Of a stretch of DNA of 64,000 nucleotides, positions 19,317 through 57,634 are shown piece by piece. Origin of the DNA: Bacillus sp. NP157. Lineage in GTDB: Bacteria; Pseudomonadota; Gammaproteobacteria; Xanthomonadales; Rhodanobacteraceae. Under the pieces are notes generated by a model. It did no database searches and was not told where the DNA came from. It saw only the letters and a program-made list of their open reading frames with translations. The stretch's first letter is position 1. Every line of letters begins with the position of its first letter. The stretch is from positions 1,488,001 to 1,552,000 of the forward strand of contig CP076546.1 of NCBI GenBank assembly GCA_018889975.1. Reading direction: 5' to 3'. A program made the translations under genes and the position numbers.

Positions 19317-22300
19317 TGCGTTTCTCCCAGTCGACTCGTTCGATGCCACGGTGCACGGCCGCTTCGCGCGGGTCGCTGCCGAAGTTCCCGAACGGCTGGC
19401 CGTCGCCTCGGACGATCTTTCCCTGACCTATGCCGAACTGGATGCACGCAGCGATGCGGTGGCCCAGGGGTTGCGCGCTGCCGGCGTCGAACCGGGGGCG
19501 TATGTCGCGTTGTTGATGGAGCGTTCGGCGCTGGCGATCGTTGCGGTGTTCGGGGTGCTCAAGGCTGGGGCGGCCTATTTGCCGATCGATGGGAGCTGGC
19601 CTGCGGATCGCGTGGCGTTTGCGTTGCGGGATGCGGATGTGGCGGCGGTGATTGCGGATGAGCCTTCTTCGGTGGTTGGGGATGATGCGCCGGTTTTTGG
19701 GATGTCGGAGTTTGAGGCGTTGGGTGGGTGGGGTCGCGCGCAGGCGCGCTCCTACAACAGCGTGGGTGGGGATGAGCTGGCTTATGCGATGTATACGTCG
19801 GGGTCGACGGGTACGCCGAAGGGCGTGGAGATCCGGCATAAGTCGATCCTTCGCCTTGTCCTCAAATCCAGCTACATCGATTTCGATGCGCCGAAGATCC
19901 TGCATGCGGCGCCGCTGGGGTTCGATGCGTCCACCCTGGAGATCTTCGGGCCACTGCTGAATGGCGGTACCTGCGTGGTTTACCAGCAGCGCGTGCCCAC
20001 CGGTTGCGGTATCCGCCGCACGTTGGAGGCGCACGGTGCCGAGGTAGCGTGGCTCACGGCGGCGCTGTTCAACGCCATCGTCGACGACGATGCCAGCAAC
20101 CTCGCGGGCCTGCGCTGCATCCTCACCGGTGGCGAGGCCCTGTCGGTACCGCACGTGCGCAAGGCACTGGCGGCCTTGCCGGCCACCACGCTGATGAACG
20201 GCTACGGGCCGACCGAGTGCACCACGTTCACCACCACCTATCGCATCCCGCACGAGCTGGCGGACGACGCCGGCGCGATTCCCATTGGCATGCCCATCGG
20301 CGAGACCTCGCTGCATGTGTGGGACGAGAACCGCCAGCCGGTAGTCGATGGCGAGATCGGTGAGCTGTATATCGGTGGCACGGGCGTGGCGCGGGGGTAT
20401 CTGAATCGGCCGGAGCTTACGGCGGAGCGCTTCGTGGCTTCCGAGCATGGGACGCTGTATCGCACGGGTGACCTGGTGCGGTTCCTGCCGGATGGAAATC
20501 TTGCCTTTATCGGGCGGGCCGATGGGCAGGTGAAGATTCGTGGGTATCGGATCGAGACGGGTGAGGTGGAGTTTGCGTTGCGGGCGCTGGCCGGGATTGC
20601 GGCGGCTGCGGTGATTGCCCGGGAGGATCAGCCGGGTGATAAGCGGTTGGTGGCTTATTACGTGGTGGGGGATCGCGCGGACGGTCGCACGGACGGTCGC
20701 GCGCAGGCGCGCTCCTACAGGGATGCGTTGTTGGCCTCGTTGCCGGAATACATGGTGCCTACCGCCTGGGTGCGGATGGAGGCACTGCCGATCAATGCCA
20801 ATGGCAAGCTGGATCGCAAGGCGCTGCCGGCCCCGGACCGTGCACGGCCGGAACTGGCCGCGCCCTTCGTCGCCGCGCGCGGTAACGTCGAGCTTGTCCT
20901 TTGCACCGTCTTCGCGGAAACCCTCGGCGTGGAACGCGTCGGCCGCGAAGACAACTTCTTCGACCTCGGCGGTAACTCGCTGCTGGCCACGCGCGCCATG
21001 GCGCGCATCCATGCCGAGCTCTCCGCCACCCCTACCCTCGTCGGCTTTTTCGCGGAGCCGACCCCGGCCGCGGTCGCGGCCACGATCGAAGGGCGCGCCA
21101 CCCGCCAGGCGTTGGCAGGGCGGCTGGCGAGTGGCGCGCAGGCAGCGGGCGAGCCGGTGGCGATCATCGCCATGGCCGGCCGCTTCCCCGGTGCCCCGGA
21201 CGTGGAAACCTTCTGGGACAACCTGTGCGAAGGCCGCGAGTCCATTCGCTTCTTCGCCCCAGAGGAACTCGATCCCGCCGTGCCGGCCTCCGACCGCGAC
21301 GACCCGGGCTATGTGTTCGCCCGCGGCATCGTCGACAACGTCGGCGATTTCGATGCGCCATTCTTCGGCATGTCGCCGCGCGAAGCCGAGCTGACCGACC
21401 CGCAGCAGCGGCTGTTCATGGAGCTTTGCTGGGAGTGCATGGAGCGCGCCGGTTACGTGCCCGACGGCCAGGACACGCCGGTGGGGGTGTTCGGCGGCAT
21501 GCACAACGCCACCTATTACCAGAAGCACATCAGCGGCCGCCCCGATCTCATCGAGAAGCTCGGCGCCTTCCAGGTGATGCTCGGTAACGAGAAGGATTAC
21601 GTCGCCACCCGCGTGGCGCACAAGCTCAACCTCACCGGCCCGGCGATCAGCGTCAACACCGCCTGCTCGACCTCACTGGTGGCCATCGCCCAAGCGTTCG
21701 ACGCGCTACGCGCGGGCCGCTGCAACATGGCCCTGGCCGGCGGCGCGTCCATCGCCTGCCCGCCGAACAGTGGCTACATCGCCCAGGAAGGCTCGATGCT
21801 CTCGCCGGACGGCCACACCCGCACGTTCGACGTGAACGCGCAGGGCACGGTGTTCAGCGATGGCGCGGCCGTTGTGCTGCTCAAGCGCCTTTCCGACGCG
21901 CTGCGCGACGGCGATCCCATCTACGCGACGATCCGCGGCGCGGCGATCAACAACGATGGCGGCGTCAAGGCGAGCTTCACCGCGCCGAACGCCGCCGGCC
22001 AGGCCGCGGTGATCACCATGGCGCTGGACAACGCGGGCGTCGAAGCCCGCGACATCTCCTACGTCGAAGCGCATGGCACGGCCACGCCGCTGGGCGATCC
22101 GATCGAAATCGAGGGTCTCACCCAGGCGTTTCGCCAGACCACGGCCGATAGCGGCTTCTGTGCGATCGGTTCGCTGAAGAGCAATGTCGGCCACCTGGTG
22201 ATGGCGGCCGGCGCGGCCGGCGTGATCAAGACCGCACTGGCGATGACCGAGCGCCGCCTGCCGCCGTCGCTGCACTTCACCGCACCGAACCCGCGGTTGA

Positions 22301-25300
22301 ACCTCGATGCCTCGCCGTTCGTCGTCAACGATACGCTCCGGCCCTGGCAGAGCGCCGGCCCGCTGCTTGCCGGCGTCAGTTCGTTCGGCGTGGGTGGCAC
22401 CAATGCCCACGTCATCCTCGAGGAAGCCCCGTCACGCACGCCGTCGGATGCCGCCACGGGCGCCCAGCTGCTCACGCTGTCCGCACGCACGCCGGCCGCC
22501 CTCGCCGCCGCGGCCGCACGCCTGGCCGACCACCTGGCGATGCATCCGGACGGCAACCTGGCCGATACCGCGTTCACCCTCGCACGCGGCCGCAAGGCCT
22601 TCGGCCAGCGCACGCATGTCGTGGCCGCGTCCGCCGCCGACGCCGAGGAGCGCCTGCGCGACATCGCCGCCGCCGCGATCTGCCACACCAGCAGCAATCC
22701 GGCACCGGGTGTCGTCTTCCTGTTCCCGGGCCAGGGCTCGCAGTACGCCGGCATGGGCCGTGAGCTGCATGCCACCGAACCGGTGTTCCGCACGGCGATC
22801 GACGAGGTCGCCAACGCGCTGCGCGACGAACTCGGCTTCGACCTGCGTGAGCGGATGTTCGATGACGATGCCGAGGCGCTGAAGGCCACCGAGCTCACCC
22901 AGCCGGCCACCTTCGCCATCGAATACGCCCTCGCCCGCCTGTGGATGAGCCTGGGCGTGCAGCCGGTGGCGATGATCGGGCACAGCGTCGGCGAATTCAC
23001 CGCCGCCGTGCTGGCCGGGGTGATGCCGCTGGCCGATGCCGCCCGCCTGGTCGCACGCCGTGGCCGCCTCATGCAGGCGCTGCCTTCGGGTGCCATGCTT
23101 TCCGTTCGCCTGGGGGCCGCCGAACTGCGGGCGCGACTCCCGGGTGCTTTGTCTCTCGCCGCCGAGAACGCACCGAACGCCTCGGTCGCCTCCGGTACCC
23201 ACGAAGAAATCGAGGCCTTCCGCCTGGCCCTCGACGCCGACGGCGTCGCCTGCCGCCTGCTGCATACCTCGCACGCCTTCCACTCGGCGATGATGGATCC
23301 GGTGCTGGAGGCGTTCCGCGCCGAAGTCGCCGGCATCGCGTTGCAGGCACCGACGCTGCCGATCGTTTCCACCGCCACCGGGTTGCCGCTTACCGACGGT
23401 GAAGCTACCTCGGCGGAGTACTGGACCCACCACCTGCGCCACACCGTGCGCTTCTCGCCGGCCCTGCTGCATACGCTCGAAGAATCGACCCTCGCCTTCG
23501 TCGAAGTCGGCCCGCGCGGCAGCCTGACCCAGCTTGGCCGCCAGCATGCACAGGCGCGCGGCCGGACGTTCATTGCCAGCCTGGGTGACAACGCTGGTGA
23601 AGAACGCGCGGCGCTGTTGAACGCCGCAGGTGCCCTGTGGGCGGCTGGCGTGGCAGTCGAGGTGGATGCGTTCGACCACCGCGAGCAGCGCCGCCGGGTG
23701 CGCCTGCCGACGTATCCGTTCGAGCGGAAGCGGCATTGGGTCGAGGCGCGGGTGGCGGCTTCGGTGACTTCCATTGCTGCGGCGTTGCCGTTGGTGGGGG
23801 CCGTGTCGCAGCCGATGCCGGTGTCGCAGGTTGCCGCCGATGGCATCGGCGGATCGCGCGCGGGGCGCGCTCCTACAGGGGAGCCCACCGTATCTGAAAC
23901 CCTTTCTCTTTTGCCTCAGTCCGTGGAGCAGCCCATGCCCCTGTCCAACCGCCCGCAGCGTCTCGTGACCGAACTCGTCGCCCTGTTCGAGGATGTATCG
24001 GGCACCGAACTGGAAAACATCGACCCCGGCGCGAACTTCGTGGAACTGGGCCTGGATTCGCTGTCGCTGACGCAGGTTGCCTTGCAACTGCAGAAGACCT
24101 ACGCACTGAAGATCACCTTCCGCGAACTGATGGATGGCTGCTCTTCGTTCGAGCGCCTCGCGGCGCATATCGATCGTCTCCTGCCGGCGGATACCGCGCC
24201 GGCAGCACCCGTGGCCGCGCCGGTCCCAACCGCGCCGGCCATGGCGGCAGTACCGGTCGCAACTAGCGTGGCCGGTGGTGGCTTGATCCAGGACGTGATC
24301 GCGCAGCAGATGCAGATCATGCGGGACCAGCTGGCGTTGCTGTCGGGTGCTGCCGCACCGGCAGCGATCCCCTCCCCAGTGATGGCGGCCGATGCCGTGG
24401 CCTTGGCCGACGCCAACGCCAACACCCCGTCACCCGCCCCCGCTTTTGTAGGAGCGCGCCCCGCGCGCGATCCGGCGCCCCAGGCGGCGGCCGCCACACC
24501 GTCTCCCGCCCAATCCGCCCAATCCCCCGCCGCCAACGACGCCGAAGAAGCCGCCCTCGCCCACACCACCTACGACGTCAAGAAAGCCTTCGGCGCCATC
24601 GCCCGCATCCACAGCGGCGGCACCGACCTCAGTGCCCGCCAGCGCGCACGCCTGGACGCTTTCATGCGCCGCTACATCGAGCGCACGAAAGCCTCCAAGG
24701 CCTACACCACCGAACATCGCGGCCACCTCGCCGACCCGCGCGTGGTCAACGGCTTCCGCCCGCTGCTGAAGGAAATCATCTACCAGATCGTGGTCGAGCG
24801 CTCGAAGGGCGCGAAGGTCTGGGACCTGGACGGCAACGAGTACGTCGACGCCCTCAACGGCTTCGGCATGAACCTGTTCGGCTGGCAGCCCGACTTCGTG
24901 CTCGACGCCGTACGCGCGCAGCTCGACGCCGGCTACGAAATCGGCCCGCAGCATCCGCTGGCCGGCACCGTGGCGAAGCAGGTCTGCGAGCTCACCGGCT
25001 TCGACCGCGCCGCCCTGTGCAACACCGGCTCCGAAGCCGTGATGGGCTGCGTCCGCGTCGCCCGCACCGTCACCGGCCGCGACACTCTGGTGATCTTCAC
25101 CGGCTCCTACCACGGCATCTTCGACGAAGTGATCGTGCGCGGCACGAAGAAGCTGAAGTCAGTTCCCGCGGCGCCAGGAATCCTGCGCAACACCTCCGAA
25201 CACGTGCTGGTGCTCGACTACGGCACACCCGAATCGCTGCAGATCATCCGCGAGCGTGCCCATGAGATCGCCGCGGTGCTGGTCGAGCCCGTGCAGAGCC

Positions 25301-44854: not shown

Positions 44855-44915
44855 TCTGCAAGTATCCGAAGCACTTCAAACGATCGAAGTGACTGAGACG
44901 TGCTGGTCTCCTGAA

Positions 44916-44958
44916 GTCAATTGATGATCGCCCGTGGTCGACGCGATCATCAATTGAC
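44916..44958. terminator. Long inverted repeat between convergent genes
   Basis: GTCAATTGATGATCG and its exact reverse complement CGATCATCAATTGAC are separated by 13 bases; one more inner C-G pair makes 16 bp. It lies between the convergent stops at 44854 and 45026 and probably acts as a bidirectional terminator, although no T tract follows. It could instead be a protein-binding palindrome or a remnant insertion site. Confidence 0.5.
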
Positions 44959-45025
44959 GTGTCAAGGGTGCCCTACTGGAAGACGCCTCAGCCGCAATTG
45001 GGCCGGGCGTCACCGACCGAATTAA

Positions 45026-47473
45026 TCAAAAAGCAATACGAATTCCCGCGGTCAAGCCAAAGGACCGCATGCCAGCCGCCCCTAAGCCGTGCCGATACTC
45101 GGCTTGCGCGTAAAGCAGAGTGTTTCGCCCGACTTGCGCTGAGGCGCCCGTCGACAGCCGATAAGCACTACCGACGCGACCGGAATCGAACGATTCCACC
45201 TTGGCCAGTCCATCTCCTCTAATGCTCCATGACGACGCTCCCTTGCGGGCCACCGTCACATCCATAGCAACGAACTGACGTATGGATTCGAAAAGATCAC
45301 CCGACAATCGTGCGCCAAAGGTGATATCAACGTTCGTCATTGGCCGCATGTCAGCCACCAGACCATCCGTATCGCGCCGTTGACGCGAGTTCAGTCGGCT
45401 GATCGTCGTGCCGATGCGAGGCTCCAGGACATACGCGTCTGAGAGGCTAATAGGCCAGCCCATCGCAAGGGACATCGACCCGGTACGGGTAACGATCTTA
45501 GCTGCATGCCGCCCGCGCGCCGCAGTATCAACATACCCGACCATTCGCCGGGATCCACCCAAGGCCTCGACCCAGGCTCCATTGCTGTGCAGCCAGGTCA
45601 ACCACGTCGAGAAACCGTAAGCGTGATACCTCGACATGCTTTTACCGTCCACGGCAAAGGGCGAAACCGTCGTAGACCCGCGATCCCAGCTCCAGCCTGC
45701 CCTGAGCGAGGAACTATCGCCGTCCAGCGAAAGGACTGATCCACCGATTTGCATGGCCTCAATGCGCTGATCAAAGCCGTATCCGTACTGCTTGAAGGAG
45801 AGGTTCGAACGGTATCTGCCGTGAGCACCGACGTAGTGCGCAAACAGATCTCCGGCAGCAACGCCATCCGCCTGCCCCCGTCGAACCTCGCTGAGGCGTT
45901 CCGTCAGACCACCATCGAGGACCCTCCCATAGGCCAGCGCAGCGGCAGGTCCAGAAAGATACTGTGCGACCTGCGGTGCGACGGCAGACCGGGAAACGCC
46001 ACCATCCCCACCGCTACCCGAAGCACCATCACTCCCAGACTCGCCGCCGGGTCCGCAACCTTCTTTACAGACTGTTTTGGTAGCGAGGCGAAAATCCCAG
46101 GCAAGAGGGGTATCGCCCAGGCGGTTCCCCCCTTGATCAACTTCCCCAGGCGAAAAGGGCTTGAGCTCGTACTGGTACGGTCCAACAGCAAGATATTCAC
46201 CCTCGAGTCGAAAGGAATCCTTCGAAGCATTCCCGCCCACCTGGATGACCGAATATCCTTCATTAGCATCCGCGATGCCGTTGGCATTGGCATCCGTGCT
46301 GTGGCCATCACCGACCCAACGAATCAACACCCGCGTCTCGGGCGAAACGACATCGCCCTTGATCAGAAGGGAATCGGCGCCTTGACTAGCCGCGGGCGCT
46401 CCGCGGTCATTCCTCACGGCAAGCAAAATACGGCCACCAGACGAAGTGAGGCTCTCACGCAGGATCAGCGCAGATGGCGCCTCGTCCACGCGCCCAATTT
46501 CGATCGTACCACCGCGCAGGTCGAGCGAGCGGATACCTGACGTACCCGACGTGTGTATCAAACCGCCGGCATCGACCACCGCCTGGATGGCGCCGTCCAC
46601 ACGCCCCTCCACGACGCCCTTGTTGCGGACCCGGAGGTAGGCGTCAGAGCCACGGTCAGCGAGGACGTCACCACGTAGGTACGACTCACCTATCGAAACA
46701 CGAGCAATTGCTCGATCCCGAACGTGTATCGCGACGCCTGCTCCGCTCTCAATGGCAACGTTATCCCCTATAACCACGTCTGCATTGATCGTGCGCTCTC
46801 CAGATCCTGATATATCAATAGCGGGACCAGTCTGGCTCCGAATCGTAGAAGACTCAATATTGATCTTACTCAAAGTTCCGCTGCCAAACCTAGGCATCGC
46901 CTCAATTTTCACGCCAGCCCTTACGCCTTCGACAACGGACCCTGCTGCAACATCAAGCTCCCCATCACGCAGGAGGATTCCGTAAGAATCGGATCCCGTG
47001 GCGGTCACTTGCGATCCGTAAAGCGCCAATGTTCCGCCACGAAGCACGTGCGCGCCCGTAGTACCCCCGGAGACGGAACTGTGCGCTAACCGGGCTACTG
47101 ATCCTGGAAGCACGGGTGAAAAGTACTGATCGCCGTCAACTTCAATCCCATTATTGATCCCGCTGACAGAAGCATCTTGGACAAGAACGGACGAAGCGCC
47201 ATATGCGCGGATACCGTTATCCACGCCCGAAACAACGGATCCTTGAGTCACCTGCAGCGATGCATCTTGGGTGATCAGTGCAAGTGTTCTCGCCGAAGAC
47301 GTGATGTGCAAACGCCCTTTTTCGCGAACAAACCACGTTTCCGGTTCCGTATTCGCACCTTCGACAACGAGCCACTTCCCGGGAGCGACCTCGCCTGCCC
47401 ATGCCGACGGAATGCCGAGTACGAGCCCGACCGCGGCACCGATAGCCGACCTTCTCAAAAAAAATTCTTTCAT
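45026..47473 (-). CDS. Autotransporter 2 (type V secretion)
   Basis: 815 residues from the ATG at 47473 (GGAAGAACGG upstream; the ORF opens at 47503). The signal peptide is MKEFFLRRSAIGAAVGLVLGI... ending PSAWA. The passenger has short Val/Ser/Gly strands of beta-helix type. It carries DANANGIAD (46268-46294) at the same place as the calcium-loop-like DLNKDGIVD of autotransporter 1, followed by IQVGGNASKDSF, GPYQYELKPFSPGEVD and VCKEGCG, all closely matching the paralogue. The linker is a short Gly/Ser run rather than PENPGEP repeats. The barrel (~540-815) ends LTAGIRIAF. DNA here is visibly less G/C-rich than the EPS genes, a sign of separate ancestry. Confidence 0.92.
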   Translation of the reverse strand: MKEFFLRRSAIGAAVGLVLGIPSAWAGEVAPGKWLVVEGANTEPETWFVREKGRLHITSSARTLALITQDASLQVTQGSVVSGVDNGIRAYGASSVLVQDASVSGINNGIEVDGDQYFSPVLPGSVARLAHSSVSGGTTGAHVLRGGTLALYGSQVTATGSDSYGILLRDGELDVAAGSVVEGVRAGVKIEAMPRFGSGTLSKINIESSTIRSQTGPAIDISGSGERTINADVVIGDNVAIESGAGVAIHVRDRAIARVSIGESYLRGDVLADRGSDAYLRVRNKGVVEGRVDGAIQAVVDAGGLIHTSGTSGIRSLDLRGGTIEIGRVDEAPSALILRESLTSSGGRILLAVRNDRGAPAASQGADSLLIKGDVVSPETRVLIRWVGDGHSTDANANGIADANEGYSVIQVGGNASKDSFRLEGEYLAVGPYQYELKPFSPGEVDQGGNRLGDTPLAWDFRLATKTVCKEGCGPGGESGSDGASGSGGDGGVSRSAVAPQVAQYLSGPAAALAYGRVLDGGLTERLSEVRRGQADGVAAGDLFAHYVGAHGRYRSNLSFKQYGYGFDQRIEAMQIGGSVLSLDGDSSSLRAGWSWDRGSTTVSPFAVDGKSMSRYHAYGFSTWLTWLHSNGAWVEALGGSRRMVGYVDTAARGRHAAKIVTRTGSMSLAMGWPISLSDAYVLEPRIGTTISRLNSRQRRDTDGLVADMRPMTNVDITFGARLSGDLFESIRQFVAMDVTVARKGASSWSIRGDGLAKVESFDSGRVGSAYRLSTGASAQVGRNTLLYAQAEYRHGLGAAGMRSFGLTAGIRIAF

Positions 47474-47787
47474 CCGTTCTTCCGTAAGTTGCGTAGCGCT
47501 CACGCGCCCCGGCGCTGGGTGGCATCACCCGTCGTCCAGGTCAACCGCATAAGCAGCGGAATTCGACCACGCCCATCCGGCATGACGTGTAGGGTAAGGA
47601 CGAAGCTTGGGTAGGCCATCGGCCACTATGCGGTAGTCCCGTCCGACCTCTTACGGTTGTCCTACATGAGTAGTCCTGCGCCTACGTCATCAGTGGACGT
47701 ATCTGCGCAGAAACAGAGCCGTCCGCTGATTCGCTTCGTGTCGAGCGCGACGTACTGTTCTCCTCCACAACAACGGAGGAAAAAAGC
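47474..47787. promoter_or_regulatory. Divergent control region of island 2 autotransporter, 314 bp
   Basis: Separates autotransporter 2 from the repeat-protein operon at 47788. It holds the palindrome at 47670-47685 and a weaker look-alike, GTAGG-CCATCG-GCCAC, at 47611-47626. No ORF or RNA gene was recognised. Confidence 0.55.
47670..47685. promoter_or_regulatory. Palindromic operator candidate GTAGT-N6-CCTAC
   Basis: GTAGTCCTGCGCCTAC has the same arm spacing as the elements at 8529 and 43818 with one changed base in the left half-site. It lies 103 bp before the 47788 start. Confidence 0.4.
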
Positions 47788-49797
47788 ATGACCCACATCG
47801 CGAAGCGCCTGCCGACGCAAGAACGCAACGTTGGATTCGAATCGATCATTCGTGCCGGAAGGCTCGGCTTGTCGCGCAGGCCACGCATTGAGGTGGACAT
47901 CTCAGTCGAGCCATCGATCCCTGAAATGCTCGACGACGGGACGCTCCCAATCGAAGCAATTTCCGACGGGCTGTTGGTGCTGGCTCCGACGGGAGGGGAA
48001 GGTGGATTCCTGCCTCGCGCCGGCGACGTTTTCCTCGTCGCGGTCAACGACATCCCTATCGCGGCCACCGCCCAAACCCTGATCGACTCGACCCCCAACC
48101 CGATGCAACTGGTTGTCCCCGCGTCCTTCTTCAAGTCTCTCGACGATGGATTTCACACGATTTCCTACATCGTTACCGTGTCTCCAAGCGTCACTGCTCA
48201 GTCTTTGCCGGTGAATGTTCTTGTCGACCGCAAACCGAGCGGCGGGTCCTTGCTTCCGCGCATCATCTTCGAGGAACACATCGAACGAGACGGCATTTCC
48301 GCTGCCGAACTCGTGTCGCGACCTGACCAATCAATTCCTGTTCGAATTCCTGACTATCGTCACCAGGCCGCTGGCGACGTCATTGAGATCTTCTATTGCT
48401 CGCGTAACTCAAGTCTTGCAATTGCGCACCCTCCTATCAACGTCATGACGGATGCGCAGGAGATCACTGCGATGTTCACACTGAGTGACCTGGAGCGCGT
48501 CGAGGACGACGGTATTGTCGACTTCTTCTATCGAGTGACGGACAGGGCGCATAACGTATCGGCGCCATCCCCAAGAACACCTGTCCGATCGAACGCGAAG
48601 TACGGTCCGCGAGTTATGTACAAGGCAGACGTCAAGCGAGTGGAAGGCAGCGTGGTTCTTGATCACGACATTCGTCCGCAAATGCACATTGCCATTCCTC
48701 AGTGCGATCCGCCGTCGCGCGATGGCGACTATGTCGGCTTTTCGATCGGCACGGAACAGTTCATGGCCGGCCCGCTCAAGCTGACCGACTCGGATAAGGG
48801 ACTGATTGGCGATATTTCTTTGACCTACGCCGATGCGTGGAGTCTGGTTCCGCAGGACGGGAGAATGCCATTCGATGCTCCCATTAATTACGCCCTCATT
48901 CGTACCGGAGTGGCGAGCAAGGGGCCTTCAAGTACGGCATCGTTCAACTTCTCGCTCCCAGGAGGACAGGATCCGAACCCTGCGACGCCCGAGAATGAGG
49001 CACTCGTCGTCCCGCTACTCCGATCTGCAGGCGGTGAGGACAACGTCATCAAACCAGACGACCTCGGCAATCCGGCCAAAATTATTCTCCAACACGCGAC
49101 CTCACCAGACACTAGCCTTGGGCTCGTTGATGGTGATCGGGTAACGATGGAAGTAGATACGAAACTGATAAGTCTATCCGTCCTCGTTCGCGGAAATCCA
49201 TCTCGACTCGAGATCGATGTCCCGCCGGGATACTTGCGGGATTACCGCGGACAGAAAGCACTTTCCTATCAAGTTGAGAGACGCTTAGAAGAAGGCGTAT
49301 CTATCAATGTGCGTTCTCGTGCACAGAACGTCTCGATTTATTCCCAGGACATGCTACCGGGAGATGGGCTGCCGCTCAGCCCATCGAAGTTCGTTCTCCC
49401 TGGCATCGACGAGGTCGGCGGCGCTTCCTACATCCTGTTGTCAGCGCACCTGAGGCATCCGGAAAATAGGATTCGCATCTATTCGTATACGAACATGCTC
49501 CCCGGTGATCTGGTCAGCATTGATGTCACCGGCTTCGATGGCGTTGACGGCGGCCAAGAGGTGGGTCGCTTCAGTCTCACATACATGGTGAAGGAAGACG
49601 ACCTCGAAGCACGAGCAGACATGCTGCGGCCCAAGGATGGAATGCTCGTCTATTTCGATGTGCCCGTTGGAAGCGCTGGTACCTCCCTCTTGCCAATTCG
49701 CTATGGACGCGCCGAAACCGTCTACAGCGTGTCCAACAAGGTAGGACGCACCGAGTCTGAAGTTGACCGCGTAATCGTTCGCAATCTCGACAGCTAA
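47788..49797 (+). CDS. Ig-like-repeat protein, island 2 (669 aa)
   Basis: A strong ribosome site (GGAGGAAAAAAGC) fixes the ATG. The N-terminal half aligns with the 43934 protein (SDGLLVLAPTGG, SLDDGFHTISYIVTVS, DRKPSGGSLLPRIIFEEHI, VDFFYRVTDRAHNVSAPS). Then comes the family linker PGGQDPNPATPENEALVVP near residue 400 and two or three further beta-sandwich repeats. No signal peptide. The gene is much lower in G+C than its surroundings (32 of 60 bases at 48421-48480 by hand count). It begins a three-gene operon opposite autotransporter 2 and mirrors the 8755 gene of island 1. Confidence 0.82.
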   Translation: MTHIAKRLPTQERNVGFESIIRAGRLGLSRRPRIEVDISVEPSIPEMLDDGTLPIEAISDGLLVLAPTGGEGGFLPRAGDVFLVAVNDIPIAATAQTLIDSTPNPMQLVVPASFFKSLDDGFHTISYIVTVSPSVTAQSLPVNVLVDRKPSGGSLLPRIIFEEHIERDGISAAELVSRPDQSIPVRIPDYRHQAAGDVIEIFYCSRNSSLAIAHPPINVMTDAQEITAMFTLSDLERVEDDGIVDFFYRVTDRAHNVSAPSPRTPVRSNAKYGPRVMYKADVKRVEGSVVLDHDIRPQMHIAIPQCDPPSRDGDYVGFSIGTEQFMAGPLKLTDSDKGLIGDISLTYADAWSLVPQDGRMPFDAPINYALIRTGVASKGPSSTASFNFSLPGGQDPNPATPENEALVVPLLRSAGGEDNVIKPDDLGNPAKIILQHATSPDTSLGLVDGDRVTMEVDTKLISLSVLVRGNPSRLEIDVPPGYLRDYRGQKALSYQVERRLEEGVSINVRSRAQNVSIYSQDMLPGDGLPLSPSKFVLPGIDEVGGASYILLSAHLRHPENRIRIYSYTNMLPGDLVSIDVTGFDGVDGGQEVGRFSLTYMVKEDDLEARADMLRPKDGMLVYFDVPVGSAGTSLLPIRYGRAETVYSVSNKVGRTESEVDRVIVRNLDS

Positions 49798-49811
49798 AAG
49801 GAAATATCGAA

Positions 49812-51872
49812 ATGGATGTTAAAGATCAACGAGCATCGAGTGCGCCTCCGGCGCCCGTTATTCCGGCGCTACACGATGGTGCAATTGACTATTCCGATGT
49901 CGGCGTCGATCCCGGCGCGGTGGTCGTAGTGAGTGTTGGACCGTGGCTTGATTTTGCAAGCGGAGACCAGGTCGAGGTGCTCTGGGGCAAGGAAATGACG
50001 AGCGTCGCGGCAGTCGTATACTCAAAAGAGCAACAGGCTACCGCACAGGTTCCAGTGCTTGCGCGTCGAATCGTCGAGCTCGGTGAAGGTGTGCACCCTG
50101 TGGTGGCCCGAGTCACGGCAGGAAAGAATATCGAGGTCGTGTCGCCGGCCGTCGACGTGCTTGTGAAGTTCAAGGTCCCCGGCGGTGTCCACCCGACACC
50201 TGGCAACCCGTATGAGAATGCAGCACTTACGCCGGCCGCGATCAACCCGCCCGAACTGCCGCAAGACCTGTCCTCAGTGAGCGTAGTCCTTGCTCCCTAC
50301 GAGAATATGAGTGAGGGAGACCGTATTGCGGTGCGCTGGGGCAAGGCATTGATCGGCCGCACCACGATCGAGTCGAGCGAAGTAGGACAGGAGACCTCTG
50401 TCCACATTCCCGAAGAGACGATCCGCTCGGAGGGCGGCGGGAGCGTTGCAGTTGCGTACCAGATCCACGATATCGCGGGAAACTGGTCGTGCTGGTCGCG
50501 TCCGGTCACGATCACTGTCCCCCTCGACGATCCAGGCGCGCCTCAGTCACCCTGGGTCATCGGCACCGTGGATGATCTGGGCGTCGAGCTCGTGCCGCCG
50601 TCTGAAGGTTCCGACGGCGTCACCGTTCGCATTGAGAATCACCCAGGCGTGCCAGGCAGCTTCGTCGTCGCCCACTGGGAAGGAGTAACCAGCGCAGGCA
50701 AGTCCATTCACTACGCAGCACCTGCCGTGACGGTGGGTCGCCCCGGCCAGACGATCGACGTGGTTGTCCCGCGGATCCATGTGGACGCGCTAGCCGGCTC
50801 CTCTGCCGAGGTCTCGTATGAGATTTCTCTCCCCGTAGGTGACTGGCTGCGCTCGCAGCGGCGAAAGATCGCAGTCCGCGGCGTAGTGAGGCCGTTGCCC
50901 CCGCCGCGCGTCGTGGAATCTGTTGAAGATTTGATCGATCCCGCGGCGGCCAATCATGGTCTCCACGTGTCGGTGAGCGCATGGCCTGGGTTCTCAACGG
51001 ACGATGCGTGCGACCTCGAGTGGGTCGGGACGAAGAAAGACGGTCACCTGACTCATTACCGGGCCCAGCTGTCTGGCGAGGACGTGGGTGTCGACGATGT
51101 GCTGGTGTTTACGGTTCCGGCCGACGAGGTGGACAGGCTGGCAGGCGGATCGGTTCGGATCAGGTATGCGATCACCATGCGTGCGCCCGCTCTTCATCGA
51201 TCCGAAGTTCGGAGCGAACCTGTTGCACGGCAACATTCGCCATGGGTGGGATTCCACGTGCTGGAGGCGTCGGCTCCCTTGAGCATCGACTCAACCCCCG
51301 TGGCCCTCTCCGCACTACTCATCCGCCTGGACAAGCCCGTAACCGTGCCCACCGAAGGCAGTTTCCTGACCCGGGTAGCGACGGGTGGCACGCCGCCGTA
51401 CCGTTACACGGCGTCCAATGCCGCCGTCGACATCGACGAGGCGACCGGGCGCATCGTGTCGGCAAGGATCGGTTCCGCCGTCGTCACGGTCACCGACGCC
51501 AAGGGTGCCACGGCGACGTATCCGGTCGAGGTGAGCAACGTGTACCACCTGGTCGACATGGGTGGAGCGACGACGTTCGGGTTCACGGGTAATGCGGCAC
51601 GTGGCCGTGGCGCACGCGTGCCTTCGCTGAGCGAATGGGATGCCATGCGCGCCGCCTACGGCGGTTCGCCCGAGATCGATCCGGCCCCTGCGTGGACGGC
51701 GGACGGTGCCGGCGGCAACCAGCATTACGTGATCTATCCGACGACCGGTGCACGTGAGGCTCGTCGATCCTCGGGCATTGGCCGGATGGATCACGAGCGG
51801 AACATCTGGATCCCGATCGGCAAACCCCTTCCCTCAGCGCGTTCCTGGTGCATCACCGCGCTGACGGCTTGA
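49812..51872 (+). CDS. Ig-like-repeat protein with Big_2-type unit (686 aa)
   Basis: Starts 14 bp after the previous stop with AAGGAAATATCGAA before the ATG. The family linker VPGGVHPTPGNPYENAAL is near residue 130. Repeats follow with phrases such as YENMSEGDRIAVRWGKAL, YQIHDIAGNWSCWS and SAWPGFSTDDACDLEW. A Big_2-like unit (TPPYRYTASNAAVDIDEATGRIV ... VVTVTDAKGATATYPVEV) comes next, then a ~100-residue tail containing PSLSEWDAMRAAYGG. No signal peptide. The 3' third is more G/C-rich than the 5' part, so the gene may be a mosaic. Function unknown. Confidence 0.82.
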   Translation: MDVKDQRASSAPPAPVIPALHDGAIDYSDVGVDPGAVVVVSVGPWLDFASGDQVEVLWGKEMTSVAAVVYSKEQQATAQVPVLARRIVELGEGVHPVVARVTAGKNIEVVSPAVDVLVKFKVPGGVHPTPGNPYENAALTPAAINPPELPQDLSSVSVVLAPYENMSEGDRIAVRWGKALIGRTTIESSEVGQETSVHIPEETIRSEGGGSVAVAYQIHDIAGNWSCWSRPVTITVPLDDPGAPQSPWVIGTVDDLGVELVPPSEGSDGVTVRIENHPGVPGSFVVAHWEGVTSAGKSIHYAAPAVTVGRPGQTIDVVVPRIHVDALAGSSAEVSYEISLPVGDWLRSQRRKIAVRGVVRPLPPPRVVESVEDLIDPAAANHGLHVSVSAWPGFSTDDACDLEWVGTKKDGHLTHYRAQLSGEDVGVDDVLVFTVPADEVDRLAGGSVRIRYAITMRAPALHRSEVRSEPVARQHSPWVGFHVLEASAPLSIDSTPVALSALLIRLDKPVTVPTEGSFLTRVATGGTPPYRYTASNAAVDIDEATGRIVSARIGSAVVTVTDAKGATATYPVEVSNVYHLVDMGGATTFGFTGNAARGRGARVPSLSEWDAMRAAYGGSPEIDPAPAWTADGAGGNQHYVIYPTTGAREARRSSGIGRMDHERNIWIPIGKPLPSARSWCITALTA

Positions 51873-54327: not shown

Positions 54328-55871
54328 GGACTGGCCTTGGCCGCCGCGGGCGGCACGATGGCGAGCACGCGCGAGAGCGCACGCCCGGGCGGACCCAGCC
54401 GTCGGCTGATGCCCGCCATCAACTGGAGGTCCCCGGCCGACCAGTAACGCACCCAGGCGCTACCCGGCACGTAGATGGCGACGAAGGCTAGGGCACCGAG
54501 GATGAAGCCGAGCCGCGACGGCGTCGCCTCGGTGGCGGCCCATGCCGCCAGCGTCGCGACGACGCCAACGCCGAACAGGCGCAGCATGGCCGCCCAGGGC
54601 ATCCCGCCCTGGGTCGCCTTGCGCAGGTAGTGCACGGCCAGGGCCATCTCGACGATGCGCGTGGCGGCATAGGTACACACGGCACCGGCAAGGCCGAACG
54701 GCGGCACCAGCAGCCCGCCGAGCACGGCGTTGGCGACCAGCGCCACCACCGCGATGCGGACGCGATCGTCCTGCCGGTCGACCACCGTCTGGAACGCGGC
54801 GATGCCATTGCCGATCAGCAGCAAGCCGCCGAGCACCAGCGTGGCCTCGATCGCCGGGATCGCATCCACGTAGCGCGTGCCGTACATCAGCCGCACGATC
54901 TCCGGCGTCGTCACCACGCCGATACCGGCGATCGCGATGCCCACGGCCCAGTAGAACCGCGTGGCTTCGGAAAGGAAGCGCGCCGCCTTCGCCGTGCCGC
55001 TCTCGCCGTAGGTCTTGGCCATGTAGGGCAGCAGCGTCGAGGTAAGCCCCACCGAGAACAGCTGCACGGCACCGCGTGTCAGCGTGCCGGCGATGGCGAA
55101 GTAACCCACCGCCACCGAGCCGGTGAAGGTGTTGAGCAGGAACACCTCGATGGTGCCGGTGCGGAACGAGCCCATCAGCACCAGCATGGCCGTGAGCTTC
55201 AGGTGCCGGTTCACCCGGGTCGTCATCGCCGCGGGCACCACCCCCGGCGCATACGGCCGGCACAGTCGCCGGTACATGATCCGGTTGATCAGGTTGAGCA
55301 AGAGGCAGGCGATGGCGAACAGGGCGACGAAGTCGAGCAGGCCCGCATGGGCAAACATCGCGCCGAGCACGAACAGCATGCCGGCGATGCCGCCGATGAC
55401 GGTCGCGACCGCCTCCGGCTCGAATCGCTCCTGCCCCTTGCCGATCGCGACCAGCATCGCGTAGTTCGCCTTGGCGACCACGGCGACGACGACCAGCAGC
55501 ATGATCGGCAGCAGCGACTGGTCCCACTCAGCGGGCCGGAAGACCACCGCGACCAACAGGAACAGGCCGATCACCACCAGCGAACTCCAGCCCTGGATGC
55601 GCGAGAAACGCGCCGCCAGGCTCGATGCGAGCGCGGGGTCACCCATGCCATCCGCCTCGGCGATGAACTTGGTCGACGAGGTGGTCAACGCATGGTTCGA
55701 ACAGACGATCAGCCAGCCGCACAGCCACACGGTGAAGGCATACCGGCCGAAATCCGCCGGCCCGAGCGAACGCGCGATCCACACGCTCATCAACAGGCCA
55801 AGCGCGTATTCGATGTAGGTCGACACGGTGACGATGCCGACGCTGCGAAGGACGTCGATCCGACGGCTCAT
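54324..55871 (-). CDS. Oligosaccharide flippase (Wzx/MATE-like)
   Basis: 515 residues from the ATG at 55871, in an ATGA overlap with the upstream gene; the ORF runs on to 55961 without similarity. The protein is almost entirely membrane segments, about 14, with the polysaccharide-synthase N-terminus STYIEYALGLLMSVWIARSLGPADFGRYAF (two adjacent blocks) typical of Wzx. A second half-repeat begins near residue 290. Role: moving the undecaprenyl-linked EPS unit across the inner membrane before polymerisation by the ligase-like protein at 34734. Confidence 0.9.
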   Translation of the reverse strand: MSRRIDVLRSVGIVTVSTYIEYALGLLMSVWIARSLGPADFGRYAFTVWLCGWLIVCSNHALTTSSTKFIAEADGMGDPALASSLAARFSRIQGWSSLVVIGLFLLVAVVFRPAEWDQSLLPIMLLVVVAVVAKANYAMLVAIGKGQERFEPEAVATVIGGIAGMLFVLGAMFAHAGLLDFVALFAIACLLLNLINRIMYRRLCRPYAPGVVPAAMTTRVNRHLKLTAMLVLMGSFRTGTIEVFLLNTFTGSVAVGYFAIAGTLTRGAVQLFSVGLTSTLLPYMAKTYGESGTAKAARFLSEATRFYWAVGIAIAGIGVVTTPEIVRLMYGTRYVDAIPAIEATLVLGGLLLIGNGIAAFQTVVDRQDDRVRIAVVALVANAVLGGLLVPPFGLAGAVCTYAATRIVEMALAVHYLRKATQGGMPWAAMLRLFGVGVVATLAAWAATEATPSRLGFILGALAFVAIYVPGSAWVRYWSAGDLQLMAGISRRLGPPGRALSRVLAIVPPAAAKASP

Positions 55872-57634
55872 GGCGAATGCCCCTCGGCCGACGCACCACG
55901 CGACGCCACGGGGTTGGCGCCCGGCTTGAGCCCTGCCCCCGCCGGCTGCGCCATCATCCACTGCGCGACGCCCGCGCCGCGATTATTCCAGTTGAAGCGG
56001 CGCAGCGTGTCCGAAATTGCCGCGCACGACGGGCTGTAGGAATGGGCGATCGCCTCGAAGCGTTTTTGCAGCGCCGCGGCACGGGCCGGGTCGGTCTCGA
56101 AATAACGCGCTGCGGCCACCGGCAAGCCGAGCTCCACGGTATGCCCGTCGCTATACCAGCCCTCGCTCTCCTGGATCTTCGCGATCGCCGCGGCCGGCGC
56201 GTGCGAGGACGACCAGTACCAGGCGATCTGCCCGTCCGGGCCGGAACAATCGTTGCGCCAGTTATGCGGCGAGACCAGCTCCTTCGACGCGATCCAACCG
56301 TAGCGTTCGAGGTAACGGCCAAAGTCGACGATCATCGGCGGGATCCGCGCATCGCCGGTCACCAGCCACGCGTGCCATAGGCCGTCGATGATGTTCTCGG
56401 ACATCCACGGCGAGGCACCGCGTACGTCGTCGGTGCCATGCGGGTCGTTCTCGTGGACGTTCCAGCTGTTCCGCCAGGAACCGTCGTCGCCGAGGCCATC
56501 GGGATTCTTGCGCTGGTGGTCGTAGAGCCAGCCCACGCGCTGCTCGACGCGTTCGCGGTCGCGCTTGGCACCCGTGAGTTCGTAGGCAGCGACGGTCTCG
56601 ATCAGGCCAAGGCCGGCGAGCCGCTCGGTGAAGTAGTCGTTCGGTGCGCGGTACGCGCCGGGCGTGGTGTTCCAGCCACCGCTCGCCCACAGGTCGGCCA
56701 TCTTCGACACCGTGTCGGCGTCGTGCATGCTGTCGTCGCCGGCGAGGCCCATGGCCAGCAGGATCGGTTCGATGTAGACGTATTTCACGTCGCAGGGCTT
56801 TTCGTCGGGCAGCCAGCCACCGGCGCAGGACGGGCTGGCCGGGATGCCGTCGCGCTTGATGCCGGCCATGTACCAGCGATAGCTCTCTTCGGCCGCCGCG
56901 AGGTAGTCGGCGCGGCCGGTGCGAACGTAGGCCTTGAACAGGGTCGAGGGCCGGTCGAATAGCCACGCGGTGGTGTCCTTCACCGGCAGCTCGCGGGCCC
57001 AGTGGAACTGGGCGTCGACATAGGCGGCGTAGGGTTCGTTCTTGCCGGCGACGCTTTGCGGGCCGGCGATGAGGGAGGCGGTGAGCCAGTCGGGGGTTAG
57101 GGTGGCTATGGCGGCTGGGGTGTTTTTTATCAGGCCTTGGGGGTAGGGCCAGGAGGGGGGGCATGGGGGGTTTGAGGGATTTCGGTCGCGCGCGGGCGCG
57201 CTCCTACAGGGGCTGACACCGGTGGTGGTGAAGTAGTAGGTGCCTTGGGTGGCGCGGAACTGGGCACGGACGGCGCGGATGCTGCCGTCGCGGAAGTGCC
57301 AGGTCAGCATGGGCTTGATCGCCGCGGGGACGTCGTTGCCGTATGCATCGACGATGTGCACGTCGTCCGCGTTTTTCAGCATGCCCGGCGGAAACGGGAT
57401 ACCCACCGACACCGGCAGTGCATCGCCCTGCCCGGCCAACCGCTTGACCTCGATTTTCTGGATCGCCGGTGGCAGGCCATCGGCCGCGGCGGCGTCGGGT
57501 CCGATCACCGCGCCCAGGGCCAGCAGGCAGGCGATCAAAAACAGGAAACGCCGGGTCAGTGCACCGGCGGCCTCGCCTGCGTCGCGACCGGCGACGCACG
57601 AGCGATGGAAAGCGCGGGCAGCCTTGCGGGTCAT
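55868..57634 (-). CDS. Exported glycan-active enzyme candidate with a REP element inside
   Basis: 588 residues; the ATG at 57634 overlaps the galE stop. A long basic N-terminus precedes the signal segment LTRRFLFLIACLLALGAVIG, with likely cleavage near DAAAA. Residues about 55-130 (DALPVSVGIPFPPGML, WHFRDGSIRAVRAQF) resemble the N-terminal RIFT-barrel of PcRGLX/YetA-type enzymes. The rest is alpha-helical with repeated W/Y-rich turns (AAEESYRWYMAGIK, HAWLVTGDARIPPM), suggesting an alpha/alpha-toroid lyase or hydrolase. Between the two parts, REP element 5 and C-rich DNA encode CRSAPARDR and a Pro-rich run. A periplasmic EPS-trimming lyase is my best guess. Confidence 0.7.
   Translation of the reverse strand: MTRKAARAFHRSCVAGRDAGEAAGALTRRFLFLIACLLALGAVIGPDAAAADGLPPAIQKIEVKRLAGQGDALPVSVGIPFPPGMLKNADDVHIVDAYGNDVPAAIKPMLTWHFRDGSIRAVRAQFRATQGTYYFTTTGVSPCRSAPARDRNPSNPPCPPSWPYPQGLIKNTPAAIATLTPDWLTASLIAGPQSVAGKNEPYAAYVDAQFHWARELPVKDTTAWLFDRPSTLFKAYVRTGRADYLAAAEESYRWYMAGIKRDGIPASPSCAGGWLPDEKPCDVKYVYIEPILLAMGLAGDDSMHDADTVSKMADLWASGGWNTTPGAYRAPNDYFTERLAGLGLIETVAAYELTGAKRDRERVEQRVGWLYDHQRKNPDGLGDDGSWRNSWNVHENDPHGTDDVRGASPWMSENIIDGLWHAWLVTGDARIPPMIVDFGRYLERYGWIASKELVSPHNWRNDCSGPDGQIAWYWSSSHAPAAAIAKIQESEGWYSDGHTVELGLPVAAARYFETDPARAAALQKRFEAIAHSYSPSCAAISDTLRRFNWNNRGAGVAQWMMAQPAGAGLKPGANPVASRGASAEGHSP
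57184..57207 (-). repeat. REP element 5, in frame in the exported enzyme
   Basis: Plus strand GGTCGCGCGC...GCGCGCTCCTAC, differing from elements 1 and 2 at one base. It encodes CRSAPARDR on the minus strand, at the junction of the RIFT-like and toroid-like parts. Confidence 0.88.

Follow-up and report, generated by a model that had tools for sequence, protein, structure and literature searches.

Few repeats are as common in bacterial genomes as REPs, and the DNA analysed here raises the question of why the sequence beside some of them, even inside conserved genes, is short of C on one strand. The window (the whole stretch of DNA that was analysed, C1:1488001-1552000, 64 kb of a 4.88-Mb single-contig genome) comes from an organism whose nearest named relatives at an NRPS gene are species of the soil bacterium Luteibacter, and 22 congeneric genomes served as the comparison panel. 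It appears that a solitary REP gives rise to a hotspot of mutation on one strand, also within working genes, and such a hotspot, coupled to a putative exposure of the element strand through cleavage by a RAYT protein, is the explanation of the data as a whole that we regard as probable.

REP orientation and strand composition

The repeat has the consensus TCGCGCGC[AG]GGCGCGCTCCTAC, in which GTAG (CTAC on the other strand) stands beside a short palindrome, placing it among GTAG-class REPs, and counts of 350 + 326 for GCGCTCCTAC, against 43 + 32 for the reversed pattern, indicate a dispersed family of high copy number. In what follows, the element strand is the one that reads GCGCTCCTAC, with the GGTCGC side called left and the CTAC side called right. 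Inverted pairs with GTAG outside (REPINs) account for 110 of 235 copies, an arrangement that the skewed solitary REPs do not share. Because the REP stem is almost identical on both strands, the GTAG foot should set the direction, although a congener with the foot CTCCCAC (G010) still has skew, which counts against a deciding role for GTAG itself.

Five REPs lie in the window. Unless another side is named, skew is GC skew read on the element strand over the 200 bp that flank the element at its GGTCGC/GATCGC end:

19526-19733, plus strand: C-depleted flank of element 1, 200-bp skew +0.45
19734-19755, plus strand: element 1, solitary REP, TCGCGCGCAGGCGCGCTCCTAC (complement starts GTAGGAGCGCGC), in the first adenylation domain of an NRPS
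20490-20696, plus strand: C-depleted flank of element 2, 200-bp skew +0.40
20697-20718, plus strand: element 2, solitary REP in the NRPS gene that also holds element 1
23650-23853, plus strand: weakly C-depleted flank of element 3, skew +0.18
23854-23876, plus strand: element 3, REP, TCGCGCGCGGGGCGCGCTCCTAC, with the weakest skew of the window elements
24448-24470, minus strand: element 4, REP in opposite orientation inside the same plus-strand gene
24471-24680, minus strand: C-depleted flank of element 4, skew +0.33 on the minus strand, with C/A-rich codons on the plus strand
56980-57185, plus strand: C-depleted flank of element 5, skew +0.43
57186-57207, plus strand: element 5, solitary REP, antisense within the minus-strand gene 55868-57634 (W57)
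57208-57270, plus strand: C-poor stretch to the right of element 5 (CTAC side), shorter than the left one, with a skew of +0.19 over 200 bp

The original prediction, made by eye, had placed C-poor DNA on the GGTCGC/GATCGC side of every REP in the window, and all five indeed have positive left skew on their own strand, including element 4, for which a mirror image on its own GATC side had been described. The hand counts of C per 60 bases offered with it were exact (8 at 19681-19740, 6 at 57121-57180 and 21 at 20161-20220). Elements 2 and 3 had been likened to element 1; their skews are +0.40 and +0.18. Stretches with |skew| as large make up 0.05% of the 64 kb for element 1, 0.4% for element 2, 0.9% for element 4 and 0.2% for element 5; for element 3 they make up 6.8%, so this element is weak. 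In the flank of element 1, C occupies 0.09 of fourfold sites over 70 codons, compared with 0.36 further upstream. In that of element 2, about 26 of 29 ancestral third-position C were lost and 8 of 8 ancestral G were kept.

Orientation-dependent skew had also been expected around copies elsewhere in the genome, and it was found in the 1.66 Mb of sequence that was sampled. The 79 solitary REPs have a mean left 200-bp GC skew of +0.170 (z 15.7 compared with random positions) and a right-side skew of +0.087 (z 7.6), with no appreciable skew beyond 216 bp. The skew around solitary REPs is therefore asymmetric rather than strictly one-sided: the predicted fading with distance is borne out, and of the predicted one-sidedness the asymmetry stands and the strictness does not, since the CTAC side is C-poor too, strongly over some 60 bp and weakly out to some 180 bp. 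Among 200-bp windows with |skew| of at least 0.4, 44 of 55 (80%) lie within 250 bp of a REP, compared with a background of 5.6%. The effect holds for solitary REPs as a class and fails for inverted pairs, where skew is almost nil (+0.040 and +0.004) and is lacking even on the outer side; age, or cancellation inside pairs, might account for this, as a guess. Even among solitary copies only about 40% are strongly skewed, and about half of isolated REPs show little skew.

The bias follows the orientation of the element, not the direction of the gene or of replication. At fourfold sites near REPs, element-strand C falls from about 0.50 to 0.32 in genes of the same sense and from 0.40 to 0.20 in antisense genes, and skew is 0.25 for REPs inside same-sense genes and 0.32 for those inside opposite-sense genes. 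With the origin set by the skew switch, skew in the two replication senses is 0.192 and 0.154 (p 0.23), indicating no dependence.

Strongly skewed solitary REPs often read CTCCTACAGGGG, as seen genome-wide in the right flank of isolated REPs. The GTAG strand of such copies is CCCCTGTAG, with a C|T step, the dinucleotide cut by RAYTs, one base before GTAG.

Base changes on the lineage that gained the repeat

One way to produce such flanks would be for REPs to insert where a strand is already G/T-rich, a preference that the original prediction had allowed for. REP-free orthologues argue against it. Element 5 is absent from 22 of 22 congeneric orthologues of the W57 gene, making the focal genome the sole carrier among 23 species, and the focal gene is an extreme outlier in sense fourfold G (0.12, compared with 0.30-0.62 in the 22 REP-free orthologues). 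At the NRPS site of element 2 (site 2), C is 0.11-0.31 in the six carriers and 0.45-0.77 in the 17 non-carriers, without overlap (p 2e-4), whereas far regions of the same genes barely separate the two groups (0.44 and 0.49). The trend at NRPS site 1 is alike but less clean (p 0.014), decayed REP copies being intermediate, and in two congeners (G018 and G014) REP and skew occur together at site 1 and are both missing from site 2. The codon pattern is thus absent from orthologues that lack the repeat (W57, folC, penicillin acylase and NRPS site 2), and the changes fall on the branch that gained the REP, which leaves the skew unexplained by a preference for certain insertion sites. In favour of a preference, NRPS linkers have been hit repeatedly in several congeners, by different REP families and, at site 1, in different frames. 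Taken together, these observations largely refute target preference as the source of the skew, and we consider it very improbable.

The NRPS linkers at elements 1 and 2 hold different REP families across congeners (GCGCAAGCGC, CGCTCGCGGAGCGAG, CGCTGAAGCGG and CCCACAGGGTGGG types), and REPs at site 1 occupy two reading frames, which indicates that REPs inserted there repeatedly or were overwritten as units. In congeners G002 and G015, a peptide PSFLRTQES / SFLRTQEPS near the site 1 REP position resembles what an unrelated family of palindromic repeats using the same linker would encode. Several congeners, and not the focal genome alone, likewise have REP-like peptides in the hrpA linker.

Changes on the focal branch were polarised by outgroup agreement at four loci (folC, penicillin acylase, hrpA and the W57 gene), using as outgroups 2-4 close congeners without an intact REP, with the caveat that some more distant congeners carry REP-like peptides in the hrpA linker. 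Within the near zone (-220 to -14 on the element strand), C was lost at 54 of 183 sites (29.5%), compared with 120 of 1632 (7.4%) far from the REP (OR 5.3, p 2e-16); three of the four loci are strongly skewed, so this effect size is biased upward. Element-strand A was also lost more often (10/86 near, 22/746 far, p 8e-4), which adds a second base to the predicted loss of C, and at these loci near and far rates did not differ for G (9/185 and 105/1567) or T (4/75 and 38/801). The near-to-far odds were raised 5.1-fold for C>G, 4.8-fold for C>T and 5.0-fold for A>G. Going outward on the left, the rate of C loss was 0.57, 0.44, 0.21, 0.21, 0.12 and then 0.07; on the right it was 0.43, 0.12, 0.15 and then 0.05. 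Element-strand C, and to a lesser degree A, is thus lost several-fold faster over about 250 bp on the GGTCGC side and over 60-180 bp on the other side, and of the expected C to T/G changes on one strand and one side, the single strand holds and the single side does not, as both flanks lose C.

These changes had been thought mostly synonymous, which the focal-branch counts contradict: of 54 C changes, 29 are synonymous and the other 25 alter the protein. At first and second codon positions, C was lost at 27 of 131 near sites and 42 of 1219 far sites (p 1e-11), and G loss was unchanged. Because substitution away from C and A is faster and substitution away from G and T is not, amino-acid-changing sites included, the pattern points to a damage-prone or miscopied strand rather than to a composition target.

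Among 64 isolated REPs with orthologues that were not selected for skew, C loss was 12.8%, compared with 8.9% (OR 1.5, p 6e-4), and G loss was 6.8%, compared with 8.9%. Paired copies showed no excess of C loss over G loss. The signal of an unselected pairwise comparison across all flanks was weak, since skew is missing from many isolated REPs. Between these species, C to G is in any case a common difference at fourfold sites.

Selection on an RNA feature offers another route to the same composition. If the strand with the GTAG hairpin were transcribed, the C-rich, G-poor RNA could serve as a Rho utilisation site, with the hairpin protecting the processed 3' end; the complementary strand is indeed C-rich and G-poor 3' of the hairpin, resembling a rut site, and many intergenic solitary REPs lie shortly past a stop codon in that orientation. 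The skew is equally strong, however, where the C-rich strand runs antisense to a gene or in sense inside an ORF, and a bias that is independent of replication and gene sense is no property of the transcript, as a Rho site would be. In addition, C>T and C>G rise equally, T>G and G loss show no clear change, amino-acid-changing C losses rise too, and it is implausible that dozens of sites in each gene, in essential ones such as folC, were selected for termination, all of which leave this alternative distinctly unlikely. The pattern fits hypermutation of one exposed strand, and does not fit target preference, codon selection or Rho-site selection.

Proposed exposure of one strand and its timing

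The original prediction had envisaged a directional mutagenic or repair event on single-stranded DNA, which the four- to fivefold rise in C>G, C>T and A>G with G and T unchanged supports. The element strand would have to be left single-stranded, either repeatedly or at insertion, and the most economical route would be through RAYT (TnpA-REP), an HUH nuclease. In other species, RAYT binds and cuts the REP as a single-stranded hairpin (PMC8266576); TnpA-REP is strand-specific on GTAG hairpins and cleaves at C|T on the 5' or the 3' side of the REP, generating a 3'-OH (PMC8266576) that by analogy could prime synthesis. A single PF01797 match was found in the genome: an ORF of 151 aa, with an HWH motif and the same REP on both sides, which is predicted to be the cognate RAYT. 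Each near-complete congener likewise has one or more such matches. If the enzyme cleaved the opposite (GTAG) strand beside the hairpin, and the cut strand were then displaced or resected on the 3' side of the hairpin, the element strand would become single-stranded on the left, which is just the side with the skew. C>G, C>T and A>G might then arise from damage to C and A, or from wrong bases inserted when an error-prone polymerase such as DnaE2/ImuC fills the gap. The REP could itself stay intact by being folded or bound, by being re-copied, or if mutated copies were no longer recognised.

Two precedents bear on the damage step. In Caulobacter, G:C to C:G changes depend on ImuB/ImuC (PMC3901139), and in yeast, oxidative mutagenesis of single-stranded DNA falls mainly on C (PMC3799438). 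An error-prone DnaE2 is encoded in this genome, with a match above the NCBIfam cut-off. Strand-specific nicking by RAYT, followed by damage or error-prone gap filling, is the likely, though putative, cause of the hotspot. A dedicated cytosine deaminase acting on DNA exposed at REPs would also give C>T and C>G, the outcome of deamination plus uracil repair; nevertheless, the changed C at the polarised loci has no preferred neighbour on its 5' or 3' side, as a deaminase motif would produce, and A is lost too, so that such an enzyme is highly improbable here.

Insertion by single-strand invasion and error-prone fill-in could have hypermutated the flank in one event, leaving the skew only to decay since. 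At NRPS site 2, most C losses are common to the carriers (C is lost in 4-6 of the six carriers at 33 of 61 sites), and T and G also change on terminal branches, both of which suit a single event. On the other hand, third-position C continued to be lost about twice as often on carrier terminal branches (10/27, compared with 236/1177 elsewhere, p 0.049; p 0.01 for C>G), and the carriers have different derived bases at 17 of 35 lost sites. With regard to acquisition in a single lineage, as in kataegis, shared and private C losses are both present among carriers. We judge a one-time event unlikely and lean towards a slow continuing process. Along these lines, solitary REPs may be living cut sites, at which RAYT keeps nicking the GTAG strand and each round mutates the opposite strand; this is a tentative reading that we hold to be somewhat less probable than even. 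If it is true, a REP is a permanent, orientation-dependent mutation accelerator for the adjoining 100-250 bp, including parts of NRPS adenylation domains.

Related systems and other genomes

The family resembles known GTAG-class REP/REPIN and RAYT systems in its GTAG foot and short palindrome, its hundreds of copies, a cognate RAYT flanked by the same REP, many inverted pairs and some intragenic copies (PMC3733652, PMC3116915). REP singlets have been described as defunct REPIN remnants (PMC3116915), whereas the Luteibacter singlets are intact, lie in frame in conserved genes and have a strand-specific mutational footprint. No earlier description of such REP flanks was found in the open-licence papers that were searched.

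As in yeast and tumour kataegis, changes are limited to C (and A) of one strand and to a limited tract (PMC3799438, PMC3521656), and the rise of C and A loss, with no rise for G and T, matches clusters of single-strand damage. Unlike kataegis, the Luteibacter footprint is fixed at a bacterial repeat, accumulates on an evolutionary time scale, spans 100-250 bp and lacks a deaminase motif. The ImuA-ImuB-DnaE2 (ImuC) cassette shares the G:C to C:G change seen in Caulobacter (PMC3901139), and DnaE2 is encoded in the Luteibacter genome; its action at these REPs would be a supposition, however, and C to G is common there anyway at fourfold sites. Diversity-generating retroelements also make base-specific, directional changes beside a recognition element, but they change A via an RNA template in one target gene, whereas REPs lose C on both sides of hundreds of scattered copies, with no template repeat seen.

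A footprint that records the opened strand, its direction and its extent would give in vivo evidence on the action of RAYT on chromosomes, and it bears on how REPs spread and on whether singlets are still active. It would reveal, too, a natural mutator of neighbouring genes that is specific to one strand, and it is a warning that codon bias and skew near REPs should not be read as selection for expression.

Congener G003 provides a weaker replicate (+0.094 +/- 0.025 for isolated REPs, +0.024 for paired ones). In other genera of the order, REPs are mostly clustered or paired, and the three solitary copies have skews of +0.25, +0.09 and +0.13, of which the first counts as skewed and the other two do not. 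In E. coli K-12, which to our knowledge lacks ImuB and DnaE2, the skew excess over matched intergenic controls is 0.046 +/- 0.033 for only 13 isolated REPs.

Several minor observations accompany these results. Congener G009 has a RAYT gene and essentially no REPs of this type in 400 kb, and its NRPS retains two REP relics with skewed flanks. In the focal genome, a unit of about 265 bp between two same-orientation REPs, distinct from the usual inverted REPINs, recurs (G000 C1, about 188-189k, 356k, 485k and 535k). Within the window, no ORF in 44855-51245 passes a codon-usage gene caller trained on this genome, despite long ORFs in the region (45026-47503, 47788-49797 and 49812-51872), and this segment is possibly foreign DNA.
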